The position numbers and the translations under genes are program-made. The notes below the pieces were generated by a model. The model saw only the letters and a list, made by a program, of their open reading frames with translations. It was not told the origin of the DNA and searched no databases. DNA of 48,217 bases from Gammaproteobacteria bacterium (GTDB lineage: Bacteria > Pseudomonadota > Gammaproteobacteria > Pseudomonadales > Azotimanducaceae). The stretch is from NCBI GenBank assembly GCA_018666555.1, contig JABIZD010000069.1, forward strand, positions 1 to 48,217. The letters are read 5' to 3'. This document shows, one piece after another, positions 19,008 to 23,583 of this stretch (within the stretch, counting starts at the first letter, position 1; each line of letters starts with the position of its first letter).

Positions 19008-20315
19008 TTAGCCGTTTTCTCCTTCCAGGCCCGGCACAGGAAATTTTTGGCAGAATTGCTGAACCTGCTCAGCAACCTCTGCAAGCATGGCTTCATCGCC
19101 GGGGTTTTTAAGGCAAGTAACAAGCCACGACGCCAGCAGTTGCATATCACCCTCCTGCATACCCCGAGTTGTCGCCGCAGGTGTACCGATACGAATTCCA
19201 CTGGGTTTCAGTGGTGGATTGGGGTCGTCAGGGATAATCTGCTTATTCGTGGTAATCTGAACCTGATCAAGCACCTCCTCAGCCACCTTCCCGTCCAGGC
19301 CAAAGGACTTGACCGTATCAATCACCATCATGTGATTATCCGTGCCTCCAGCTATCAGTTCAGCGCCCTGGTCCATCAATGCACCAGCAAGGGTTTTCGA
19401 ATTCTTCAGGACCTGTTCTGCATATTGTTTGAATTCGTCAGTCTGGGCTTTACCCAACGTCACCGCTATACCCGCTATGGCATTCATATGGGGACCTCCC
19501 TGCAAGCCAGGGAAAACAGACTTATCCAATTTCTTGGCAAATTTCTTACGAGACAGAACCATTCCGCCTCGCGGCCCTCGCAGAGACTTGTGGGTGGTCG
19601 TAGTGACAATATCAAACCCATGGTCAAACGGGTTTTCCATGGCATCGCCGGCAACCAGACCACCGAAGTGCGAGGCATCGGTCATGGTCAGGGCACCCAC
19701 TTCGTCAGCGATGGATTTAAAGGCTTGATAGTCAATATCTCTTGGATAAGAGGTATAACCACACAAAACCAGCTTAGGCTTATGTAATTTTGCGTCAGCC
19801 CTGATTTGATCGTAGTCAATTGAGCCATCAACGGGATTGGTTATGTACCGGACAAAATTGAACAGCTTTCCCATATGAGATACCGGCGCACCATGGGTCA
19901 GATGACCACCGTGGGACAGGTCCATGGCCAAAATCGTGTCCCCTGGCTCAAGTAACCCTAAATAAACTGCCTGGTTCATAGCTGACCCGGATAGCGGCTG
20001 CACATTTGCATGTTCACACCGAAACACCGCCTTGGCTCGGTCCCTAGCCAGATTTTCAATCTCATCAGTATAAGTCTGGCCACCATAATACCGACGACCC
20101 GGATAACCTTCGGAGTACTTGTTGGTAAAAACACTTCCAAGTACAGCCAGAACTTCCGGAAAGGTGTAATTCTCAGATGGTATCAATTCGATCCCGTCAC
20201 GCTGACGCTGTTCTTCGCCAAGCAGCGCAGCATAAACCTGAGGATCACTTTGCTGGAGATCGAGGCGATTTTTTAATACTGGGTGAATTTCATTTCCGGT
20301 CTGTGTTGCTGTCAT
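19008..20315 (-). CDS. glyA: Serine hydroxymethyltransferase, divergent type
   Basis: PLP enzyme interconverting serine + tetrahydrofolate and glycine + 5,10-methylene-THF. 435 residues from the ATG at 20315, with AGGAG eight bases upstream; the longer reading from 20339 is not supported. Seen: PSENYTFPEV, TNKYSEGYPGRRYYGG, DLSHGGHLTHGAPVS, and the PLP-lysine motif TTTTHKSLRGPRGGM. FPGLQGGPHMNAIAG, GGTDNHMMVID and SGIRIGTPAATTRGM also match. The PLP-stacking block reads TDASHFGG where the E. coli enzyme has VDMAHVAG, and the preceding loop (GYTSYPRDIDYQAFKSIADEVGA, given in part) also differs, so it belongs to a separate SHMT branch. A ZTP riboswitch precedes it. Confidence 0.93.
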   Translation of the reverse strand: MTATQTGNEIHPVLKNRLDLQQSDPQVYAALLGEEQRQRDGIELIPSENYTFPEVLAVLGSVFTNKYSEGYPGRRYYGGQTYTDEIENLARDRAKAVFRCEHANVQPLSGSAMNQAVYLGLLEPGDTILAMDLSHGGHLTHGAPVSHMGKLFNFVRYITNPVDGSIDYDQIRADAKLHKPKLVLCGYTSYPRDIDYQAFKSIADEVGALTMTDASHFGGLVAGDAMENPFDHGFDIVTTTTHKSLRGPRGGMVLSRKKFAKKLDKSVFPGLQGGPHMNAIAGIAVTLGKAQTDEFKQYAEQVLKNSKTLAGALMDQGAELIAGGTDNHMMVIDTVKSFGLDGKVAEEVLDQVQITTNKQIIPDDPNPPLKPSGIRIGTPAATTRGMQEGDMQLLASWLVTCLKNPGDEAMLAEVAEQVQQFCQKFPVPGLEGENG

Positions 20316-20341
20316 CGGGCAGGCTCCTAATAAGGTCAATT

Positions 20342-20452
20342 GGGCGCCCAGGCGAACGGCTTCTTGGTTGAGATAAAGTCAGCTTCGACAAGCTACTCTG
20401 ACCTTCACACTTCCCAGTGGTTTTCCACTTTTCATCGCCAGTCATGTGAAAG
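20342..20452 (-). ncRNA. ZTP (pfl) riboswitch upstream of glyA
   Basis: Read on the minus strand, the element contains the pfl-motif parts in order. P1 5' arm CTTTCACA (20452-20445) pairs over eight positions with TGTGAAGG (20409-20402). The conserved ACTGGCG is at 20442-20436. P2 is AGTGG-AAAA-CCACT (20429-20416), then GGGAAG. A variable linker hairpin follows (20402-20378), then the second conserved block CCGTTCGCCTGGGC at about 20359-20346. Its CGCC can pair with the GGCG of the first block to make the expected pseudoknot. ZTP riboswitches sense ZTP/ZMP, signals of 10-formyl-THF shortage, and glyA is a classic target gene. The element ends 26 bases before the glyA start codon. Confidence 0.88.
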
Positions 20453-20457
20453 TAGAT

Positions 20458-21096: not shown

Positions 21097-21948
21097 ATGC
21101 AAGAAGGTCAATTCACAGGATTCAAGGTGGCGATCGATAGTTCCGGTATCGCTTGGATAGAGTTTAATGAGCCCGAGCGTCTCAATGGCATGAGTATCGC
21201 AAAGAAAAGGGACTTGATCGAAGTACTGACCCAGGCACAGATGGATAACGCCATTCGCGTTATCATCTTCATAGGCCAAGGCCGCGCATTCTGCGCGGGT
21301 GATAATTTAAAGGGCTATACCTCTCAAGCACCTGATTCAAAGCTGCTACCCAGTATTCCGCCAGGTCACGATAATGCGCTGGGCACCTATAATTCGTTGC
21401 GGCACATCTCCCAGGAGCTCAATCTGACCGTGAGAAAGCTGGATAAGCTCACTATTGCCGCTATTAACGGCATCGCCATACAGACTGGCCTGTCACTGGC
21501 CCTGGCCTGCGATTTTAAAATAGCGGCTGATACAGCCAGACTCGGGTCAGCTACATTAAGGTTTGGACTACTGCCCGACGAAGGCGGTCATTACCTGCTT
21601 CTGGAGCATCTCGGCCTGGTCAAAACCATGCAATTCCTAATGCGTAAAACCATTGCCACCGCCAACGAAGCTCTCGAACTCGGCTTAGTCAACGAAGTCG
21701 TTGCCGAGGCACAGCTCAGGCAGAGAGTCACAGAACTGGCTGTGGAGCTAAGCGAAGGGCCTCAAGTTGCCATGCGGATGTTGAAGCGCTCGCTGTATCA
21801 GGCTACCTCGATGAGCTTTGAACAGGCCTGTGAGGATATCGCCTCAAGAACGGCCATTACAGATCACCATGCTGATGCCAGGGAAGGCGGTAATTCGTTT
21901 CGTGAAAAACGCTCACCCGTCTTTAATCGCTGGCTTGACGATGCCTAA
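21097..21948 (+). CDS. Enoyl-CoA hydratase/isomerase (crotonase) family protein
   Basis: 283-residue crotonase-fold enzyme acting on an acyl-CoA thioester. The oxyanion-hole segments GQGRAFCAGDNLKG and AAINGIAIQTGLSLALACDFKIA are both clear. GLLPDEGGHYLLLEHLG covers the usual catalytic Glu region (PDEGG). The C-terminal AREGGNSFREKRSPVFN matches the family's ...EG..AF.EKR.P.F end. A GGGGGAAAA ribosome-binding site precedes the ATG. It is likely part of fatty-acid, aromatic or branched-acid degradation; the exact substrate cannot be assigned. Next gene downstream is the selenoprotein. Confidence 0.88.
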   Translation: MQEGQFTGFKVAIDSSGIAWIEFNEPERLNGMSIAKKRDLIEVLTQAQMDNAIRVIIFIGQGRAFCAGDNLKGYTSQAPDSKLLPSIPPGHDNALGTYNSLRHISQELNLTVRKLDKLTIAAINGIAIQTGLSLALACDFKIAADTARLGSATLRFGLLPDEGGHYLLLEHLGLVKTMQFLMRKTIATANEALELGLVNEVVAEAQLRQRVTELAVELSEGPQVAMRMLKRSLYQATSMSFEQACEDIASRTAITDHHADAREGGNSFREKRSPVFNRWLDDA

Positions 21949-21963
21949 TTTTGTTAAGGGGCA

Positions 21964-21991
21964 TTGCAGTTCAGGTAATCCAACCTATACT
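21964..21991 (+). promoter_or_regulatory. Candidate sigma-70 promoter for the SelW-like gene
   Basis: TTGCAG and TATACT are separated by 16 bases, with the -10 about 60 bases upstream of the selenoprotein ATG. This is a good match at -10 and a moderate one at -35. It would let the small gene be transcribed independently of the crotonase gene. Confidence 0.4.
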
Positions 21992-22051
21992 AAAAACAAT
22001 ACACGAGCCTATTTTAGGAATAATCGTGCCGCCAACCAGGAAATTAAAACC

Positions 22052-22288
22052 ATGAAAATCAATATCGAATACTGTGTGCAATGAAATTATTCACCTGAAG
22101 CGGTCAGTCTGGCCGAACAAATCGAACAAACACGTGGAATTGCCAGCGAACTTCAACCCGGCGCCGGTGGGGTTTTCGAAGTATCCTATGGAGACAAACT
22201 TATTTTTTCTAAAAAACAAGTGCACCGGTTTCCTGATCTGACGGAAATACTCGCCGGACTGGACCCACTCGTAACTGAAAAAAATTAA
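22052..22288 (+). CDS. SelW-like (Rdx family) selenoprotein with in-frame TGA = Sec
   Basis: Seventy-eight codons before the TAA. The frame is open apart from one TGA at 22082-22084, which falls exactly at the second position of a CxxU redox motif: IEYCVQU, with Cys8 and Sec11. Downstream the reading is that of the Rdx/SelW thioredoxin-like family: a helix after the motif, then GGVFEVSYGDKLIFSKK and HRFPDLTEIL. If TGA were a stop the product would be ten residues, yet the rest is clearly conserved protein sequence. AGGA ten bases upstream of the ATG can act as ribosome-binding site. A candidate SECIS hairpin follows the TGA. Members are thought to be thiol oxidoreductases; the partner is unknown. 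SelA/B/C/D are not in this window. Confidence 0.9.
22101..22115 (+). promoter_or_regulatory. Candidate bacterial SECIS apical hairpin
   Basis: CGGTC and GGCCG form a 5-bp stem (one G-U pair) with the loop AGTCT, starting 17 bases after the Sec TGA. The GUCU in the loop recalls the GGUCU loop of the E. coli fdhF SECIS, and the UGA-to-loop distance of about 22 bases is in the usual bacterial range. SelB binding is inferred, not shown. Confidence 0.6.
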
Positions 22289-22326
22289 AGCATTGCCAGA
22301 CAATGGACACTAAGAGGAAAATACAA

Positions 22327-23583
22327 ATGAATATGGCCATGAAGTACCTGCCTTTACTATTAGCCATGGTGCTACTACAAGGCCAGGCTGATGAATTATC
22401 CCAGCGAGTAGCCAAAGTACTTGAAAACACGCCGTTAATCGACGGCCATAATGATATTCCCTGGCAATATCGGGTACGCGTTAAAAACCATTTGAATCAG
22501 CTTGATTTGGCAGCAGACTTAACAAAACTGGAGAAACCTACCCATACCGATATAGCCCGGCTCAGAAAAGGCTTGGTAGGAGGCTTGTTCTGGTCAGTAT
22601 ATGTACCTATCGGAGAATACGGCGGCGATGCCCAAGATGTGCAATTAGTAGTGGAGCAAATCGATCTGGTAAAACGTTTGGTTGGCAAGTACAACGCCGA
22701 TTTTGAAATGGCCTACACTGCTGAAGAAGTTAGGGATATACATAACCGCGGTAAAATTGCCTCCCTGATCGGAATGGAAGGCGGCCATGCCATCCATAAT
22801 TCACTGGCAACCCTACGCATGCTCTATGATCTCGGCGCCCGTTACATGACCTTGACCCATTCTAAGGGACTACTTTGGGCAGACTCAGCAACCGATGATG
22901 CCAGACACGATGGACTGACGACTTTTGGCGAACAGGTCGTCAAGGAAATGAACCGAATAGGTATGCTTGTTGACCTGTCGCATGTCTCCGCTGAATCCAT
23001 GAGGGATGCCTTGAGAATCTCCCGGGCACCTATCATATTTTCCCACTCTTCGGCCTACTCCATCACCCAGCATGAACGAAACGTACCGGATGACGTGTTG
23101 AGGAGCGTTGCTGCAAACAATGGCATCGTCATGGTGAATTATCTGACCTCTTATGTATCGGAAGCTAGACGCCTACACAGAATAGAATATGAGCAACATC
23201 ACGAGGCGATTTCTTCTCAGCTCACAGAAGATAAATTAGAGGTAGCCATGAACCTCTGGGAAAAGAACAATCCTCCACCAGACGTCACACTATCGGACGT
23301 AGCTGATCATATAGACCATATTCAGCAGATAGCCGGTATAGACCACATTGGTCTTGGCGCAGATTACGATGGCATGCCGCCTGGCCCAATTGGCCTTGAG
23401 GATGTGTCTACCTATCCGGCATTACTAAGGGAATTACTGGTTCGAGGTTACAGCGATGAAGACATTGCTAAGATAGCCGGCGACAACATTTTGCGAGTAC
23501 TCTCGCAAGCCGAAGTAATCGCACAACAAATGCAGAGCGAAACAGAAGCATCTGACCTGCTGCTGGAAGAGACCATAGACTGA
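22327..23583 (+). CDS. Membrane dipeptidase, peptidase family M19
   Basis: Zn-dependent renal-dipeptidase-like enzyme, predicted to be exported: MNMAMKYLPLLLAMVLLQGQA forms a signal peptide. Metal ligands and active-site segments are present: LIDGHNDIPW (HxD), GMEGGHAIHNS (Glu), LTLTHSKG, VDLSHVS (His), IFSHSSAYSI (His) and IGLGADYDG (Asp). The family cleaves dipeptides, often D-Ala- or dehydro-dipeptides. The ATG at 22327 is chosen because AAGAGGAA lies seven bases upstream; an ATG at 22303 adds eight residues. The mature length of about 400 residues is normal for secreted bacterial M19 enzymes. Confidence 0.9.
   Translation: MNMAMKYLPLLLAMVLLQGQADELSQRVAKVLENTPLIDGHNDIPWQYRVRVKNHLNQLDLAADLTKLEKPTHTDIARLRKGLVGGLFWSVYVPIGEYGGDAQDVQLVVEQIDLVKRLVGKYNADFEMAYTAEEVRDIHNRGKIASLIGMEGGHAIHNSLATLRMLYDLGARYMTLTHSKGLLWADSATDDARHDGLTTFGEQVVKEMNRIGMLVDLSHVSAESMRDALRISRAPIIFSHSSAYSITQHERNVPDDVLRSVAANNGIVMVNYLTSYVSEARRLHRIEYEQHHEAISSQLTEDKLEVAMNLWEKNNPPPDVTLSDVADHIDHIQQIAGIDHIGLGADYDGMPPGPIGLEDVSTYPALLRELLVRGYSDEDIAKIAGDNILRVLSQAEVIAQQMQSETEASDLLLEETID

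Follow-up and report, generated by a model that had tools for sequence, protein, structure and literature searches.

An in-frame UGA at the CxxU site of a SelW-like gene very probably encodes selenocysteine in a gammaproteobacterial genome

The window examined here is a stretch of 48,217 nucleotides from the genome of a Gammaproteobacteria bacterium of the family Azotimanducaceae. On its plus strand, at 22052..22288, lies a selW-like gene of the Rdx family which runs from an ATG at 22052 to a TAA at 22286-22288 and codes for 78 amino acids, with an AGGA located 10 nt upstream of the start. The frame is broken solely by a TGA at 22082..22084 (+), codon 11, most likely read as selenocysteine (Sec); in translation this codon closes the redox motif CVQU (codons 8-11, 22073..22084, +). 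These coordinates, with U at residue 11 of 78, are exactly those given by an earlier sequence-only reading, which had also supposed the gene to be hidden from automatic callers. A search for table 11 ORFs of at least 60 aa returned over the start codon only an in-frame TTG frame, 21818-22084, and since this frame stops at the TGA, a caller without Sec logic probably misses the selW-like gene. The annotation is corrected here for a gene that ordinary calling would probably overlook. Past the TGA, at 22101..22115 (+), a SECIS-like hairpin of six pairs was found, with an apical loop GUC at 22107-22109 and 22 nt from UGA to loop. A promoter and terminator scan of 21900-22400 gave one promoter-like site (1.3 expected) and no terminator-like site (0.5 expected).

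The sequence-only reading had recognised a SelW-like protein around the CVQU site, and profile searches with the 78-residue translation bear this out. Pfam PF10262 (Rdx) matches residues 2-68, across the TGA, with an E-value of 5.5e-19 and 68.6 bits (cut-off 22.6), and TIGR02174 reaches 55.6 bits (cut-off 34.2); the narrower profile NF041051 (SelTWH_Campy) gives 82.8 bits, below its cut-off of 88. The match to the Rdx family is far beyond chance. Sequence comparison with solved structures retrieved eight distinct chains at E-values up to 1, the best being 3dex (5e-8), which carries Cys in the sequence alignment where the window gene has TGA; mouse selenoprotein W is also among them (E 0.0014).

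An AlphaFold model, built from a 3-row alignment with C substituted for U, has a pLDDT of 90.5 and a pTM of 0.80, and predicts a beta-alpha-beta-beta-beta-alpha order plus a short extra helix. With strand 1 predicted at residues 3-8 and the first long helix at 14-28, the CxxU residues 8-11 stand at or just after the end of the strand and before the helix, that is, in the position expected between strand 1 and helix 1 of a thioredoxin-like fold. The top 21 Foldseek matches in the PDB are bacterial Rdx/SelW-type entries with TM-scores by query length of 0.74-0.88, several of them bearing SelW-related titles. The closest solved structures are the bacterial Rdx proteins 2fa8, 3dex, 2obk, 2oka, 2ojl and 2p0g, which share the same fold. 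The eukaryotic proteins mouse SelW (2npb, Foldseek rank 23) and MIEN1 (2ljk) are detectable by both sequence and fold; they are 23-26% identical to the window protein and structurally weaker matches, with TM-scores by query length of 0.62 for mouse SelW and 0.80 for MIEN1. In an alignment of 17 rows selected for a TGA at residue 11, Cys 8 never varies.

If the TGA encodes Sec, the organism should possess the corresponding machinery, as the earlier reading had implied; the absence of selA, selB, selC or selD would have spoken against it. All four were found in the same genome, an assembly of 4.17 Mb in 217 contigs that is 97.6% complete. SelA scores 570.7 bits (cut-off 267.9), SelB 425.3 bits (cut-off 242.25) and SelD 251.3 bits (cut-off 125). 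The selA and selB genes neighbour each other on contig C152; their frames, 465 and 627 aa long, have a four-base overlap. The SelD match covers the C-terminal portion of a frame of 733 aa, whose front part we take to be an oxidoreductase fusion. A tRNA-Sec is present at 49.8 bits (gathering score 47) and is called as tRNA-Sec with anticodon tca by ARAGORN. It is the only one of ten tRNA-Sec model matches in this genome to exceed the gathering score, and the seven scanned among the nine others are ordinary tRNAs. Among 14 named control genomes, the cut-offs were passed by five for tRNA-Sec, two for SelB, one for SelA and two for SelD. As five of the 14 controls pass the gathering score, the tRNA score alone is unspecific, and the argument for Sec machinery is carried by the tca anticodon together with the selA, selB and selD genes. 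The bacterium is thus very likely a selenoprotein-making one.

The distribution of TGA and Cys forms was followed in a set of 58 genomes including that of the window. A SelW match was obtained in 21 of them, and 17 carry a form with a single TGA, all within the family of the window. SelA is over the cut-off in 16 of these 17, the remaining one (G030) having SelA pieces below it, and the TGA form is absent from all 23 genomes of the set without a SelA match. Four genomes (G042, G043, G049 and G051) have only a stop-free form, read as CxxC, and none of them has a SelA match. A further 18 of the 58 genomes have a SelA match and no SelW match, so that Sec use among these genomes is independent of SelW. 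Within the genus, the SelW gene occurs in 4 of 15 genomes.

A wider search of the family gave 116 match rows in 113 of 206 genomes, and 111 of the rows hold a TGA. The five rows that lack one are two partial matches (G169 and G161) and second copies in G062, G017 and G031, those of G017 and G031 being read as Cys-type. These last three genomes combine a Sec-type SelW with a second, stop-free Rdx gene (in G031, G017 and G062: L044, L045 and G062:C20:1632-1850). One of the rows with TGA, in G093 (C12:25649-25846), is a weak SelW match which also contains TAG and TAA and is perhaps a decayed copy.

The in-frame UGA is conserved across species at the family's Cys/Sec site. DNA was read at 42 distinct places in separate genomes, the best-scoring rows (one SAR324 locus, the other 41 within the family), and every one has TGA at the CxxU position. 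In 29 loci the gene was located with a motif that itself demands TGA at CxxU and that gave one match in each of the 29. Repeated places were counted once (L046=L024, L049=L030, L051=L028, L055=L027, L057=L038 and L061=L036). This recurrence bears directly on the proposal that a Cys codon appears as TGA through a mistake in sequencing or assembly, the gene then being an ordinary Cys-type Rdx protein, which the earlier reading had named as a way in which it could fail. TGA is a single base away from TGC and TGT and the genome is assembled in 217 contigs, but with an identical TGA recurring at this codon in every one of the 42 distinct places, a sequencing error is not credible. Furthermore, the Cys forms from the window's order make up a separate branch of the protein tree described below (5 rows, 100/100), and Cys as the only form sits in four genomes that have no SelA match. 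We therefore attach practically no probability to such an error.

Selection on the gene was estimated against three same-genus copies. For the whole frame dN/dS is 0.13-0.15, and downstream of the TGA it is 0.12-0.14 (0.233/1.637, 0.232/1.627 and 0.235/1.92); relative to one of these copies (L024), changes number 18, 9 and 35 at the first, second and third codon positions and thus fall mostly on the third. Judged from these substitution patterns, the stretch downstream of the TGA evolves like translated sequence, under purifying selection. The same two neighbours, presumably an enoyl-CoA hydratase-like and a dipeptidase-like frame, flank the SelW gene in all three of the other same-genus loci that have it. 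Outside the genus, the hydratase-like neighbour has a match in L037 (71.5%) and a weak one in L028 (27.6%), and the dipeptidase-like neighbour has none in the other loci compared. No functional link between these neighbour genes and the SelW-like gene emerges.

Persistent purifying selection past the TGA and the conserved neighbours both argue against a dead or truncated copy in which the TGA would be a true stop. Decayed copies may exist elsewhere, as the G093 row with its TAG, TAA and TGA suggests. A TAA also falls within the match in seven further rows; the five that were read at DNA level (all but G075 and G192) simply end at that TAA. The gene is also missing from about 10-11 of the 14 other same-genus genomes and hence is dispensable in the genus. 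For the window gene itself, a dead copy is nonetheless extremely improbable.

According to the available text of a recent review, the bacterial SECIS model has a loop of 3-9 nt, a stem of 4-16 pairs, a G in the first two loop positions, a distance of 16-37 nt from the UGA and a folding energy of -7.5 kcal/mol or lower (PMC13188914). The window hairpin, with its loop of GUC, six pairs, G in first position and 22 nt, lies within the limits of size, spacing and G. Its energy is -7.3 kcal/mol for segments of 38-54 nt, just short of the limit, and -8.4 kcal/mol for 57 nt, the limit being passed from 57 nt onwards through extra pairs outside the hairpin. In stability the window hairpin does not exceed chance expectation (z +0.77; 159 of 200 shuffles fold at least as well). 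Structural support comes only from comparison across species, folding of the window stretch alone having given none. Eukaryotic SECIS elements sit in the 3' UTR (PMC1088965), whereas the window hairpin is inside the coding region.

When 54-nt segments of 18 sequences were folded, the hairpin belonged to the minimum-energy structure in 13, the exceptions being L024, L025, L026, L035 and L047. Alignments A2 and A3 used 17 of these 18 rows, L026 being left out for its N letters and kept in the larger count, for which 47 segments were reduced to 39 distinct sequences. An outermost seventh pair is present in 32 of the 39 and missing in the window and seven of the 39, and the apical loop is GUC or GUU. 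In the 17 sequences, pairing holds in 93.3% of 119 cells, where shuffles average 87.9% and none of 500 comes as high; shifting the partner strand by 1-3 columns lowers the figure to 16.8-45.4%. None of the 500 shuffles attained the covariation score, and 15 of 500 attained the two pairs with changes on both sides; in further pair types the alignment does not exceed the shuffles, 468 of 500 reaching the observed value. RNAalifold recovered six of the seven pairs unprompted.

The clearest signal comes from pair 21-33, which among the 39 distinct sequences is G-U in 26, C-G in seven and G-C in six, with no mismatch; 0 of 200,000 permutations were as good. Since shuffles and permutations ignore relatedness, none of these counts is to be taken as a probability. 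In 38 of 39 sequences, columns 21 and 33 both fall on the third base of an Ala codon; in the SAR324 row the second codon is Met. As wobble positions, they are not linked by protein conservation by itself, and their covariation illustrates SECIS selection within a coding region. Ser is encoded by AGT in 38 of 39 rows (the remaining one has an N), and the third loop base, at a silent Leu position, varies freely (C in 20, T in 19).

Together with the full Sec pathway, the covarying hairpin also stands against decoding of the UGA by something other than Sec, such as a Trp suppressor or general readthrough, as does the location of the codon at the family's Cys/Sec site. Such decoding is very unlikely. 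Sequencing error, dead copy and general readthrough were all rejected, on the basis of UGA conservation, selection, and the Sec pathway and hairpin.

We are accordingly almost certain that the gene codes for a SelW-like selenoprotein. The frame, its family, the predicted fold, the Sec machinery, the conservation of the UGA and the covariation of the hairpin are all established by computation. From these we infer the actual insertion of Sec, the binding of SelB and the redox activity. During translation, the UGA-proximal hairpin would recruit SelB with selenocysteyl-tRNA-Sec, and Sec would be placed at residue 11. The gene would yield a small thioredoxin-like protein, most likely acting as a thiol/selenol oxidoreductase, whose CxxU redox pair, set between the first strand and the first helix, would likely carry out thiol/selenol exchange at C8-U11.

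SelW-like selenoproteins were listed as a known bacterial family already in 2005, their function being called unclear with mention of an interaction with glutathione (PMC1088965). In the available text of two marine surveys, the SelW-like CxxU proteins are the most abundant selenoprotein family (PMC1088965, PMC2398784), the GOS survey counting 427 SelW-like genes (PMC2398784). Bacterial members are also described in PMC1794560, and a 2026 review lists them as PF10262 with CxxU (PMC13188914). The window gene shares with them the family PF10262, the CxxU motif, the predicted place of Sec and a putative bacterial-type SECIS past the UGA; compared by description, it shows no difference of substance. 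As this family is well described in bacteria, the window gene is a further member that adds little new and leaves the known selenoprotein picture unchanged.

A tree was built from 52 proteins (44 distinct) over 71 columns, a motif filter having removed L045, a Cys form. In this tree, the TGA-containing SelW-like gene of a SAR324 MAG (L047:5001-5222) clusters with the four copies of the window's genus (support 97/91), and the cluster stands apart from other family members. Identity to the window protein is 48% for the SAR324 sequence and 37-44% for family members of other genera. It is possible, if rather doubtful, that SelW in this genus was not inherited within the family and instead forms, with that of a SAR324 bacterium, a branch of its own, in which case Sec genes may cross phyla. 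Given the 71 columns, the long genus branch (1.21) and the single SAR324 sequence, transfer is put forward as a lead. If true, whole Sec-encoding genes with a built-in SECIS may travel between phyla.

Other observations were made in the genome and the window. Among molybdopterin oxidoreductases, none of the 11 matched stretches in the genome holds a TGA, a count in which a Sec codon outside the stretches would go unseen, so that the genome may still encode a Sec formate dehydrogenase. A second probable selenoprotein gene is AhpD/CMD-like, with GCLYU at a CxxC-type site (L091:811-813, contig C140; PF02627 33.2 bits, cut-off 23); the hairpin downstream of its TGA is strong, at -17.9 kcal/mol, a value without shuffle control. 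A third candidate is a CMD-like stretch with QCFYU (L093:1558-1560, contig C163), which at 22.0 bits is under the cut-off of 23 and has a modest fold past the TGA (-8.3 kcal/mol). Finally, a ZTP riboswitch (RF01750, 55.6 bits) lies in the window at 20339-20455 (-) and adjoins a 443-aa minus-strand frame, 19008-20339, which we take to be a serine hydroxymethyltransferase.
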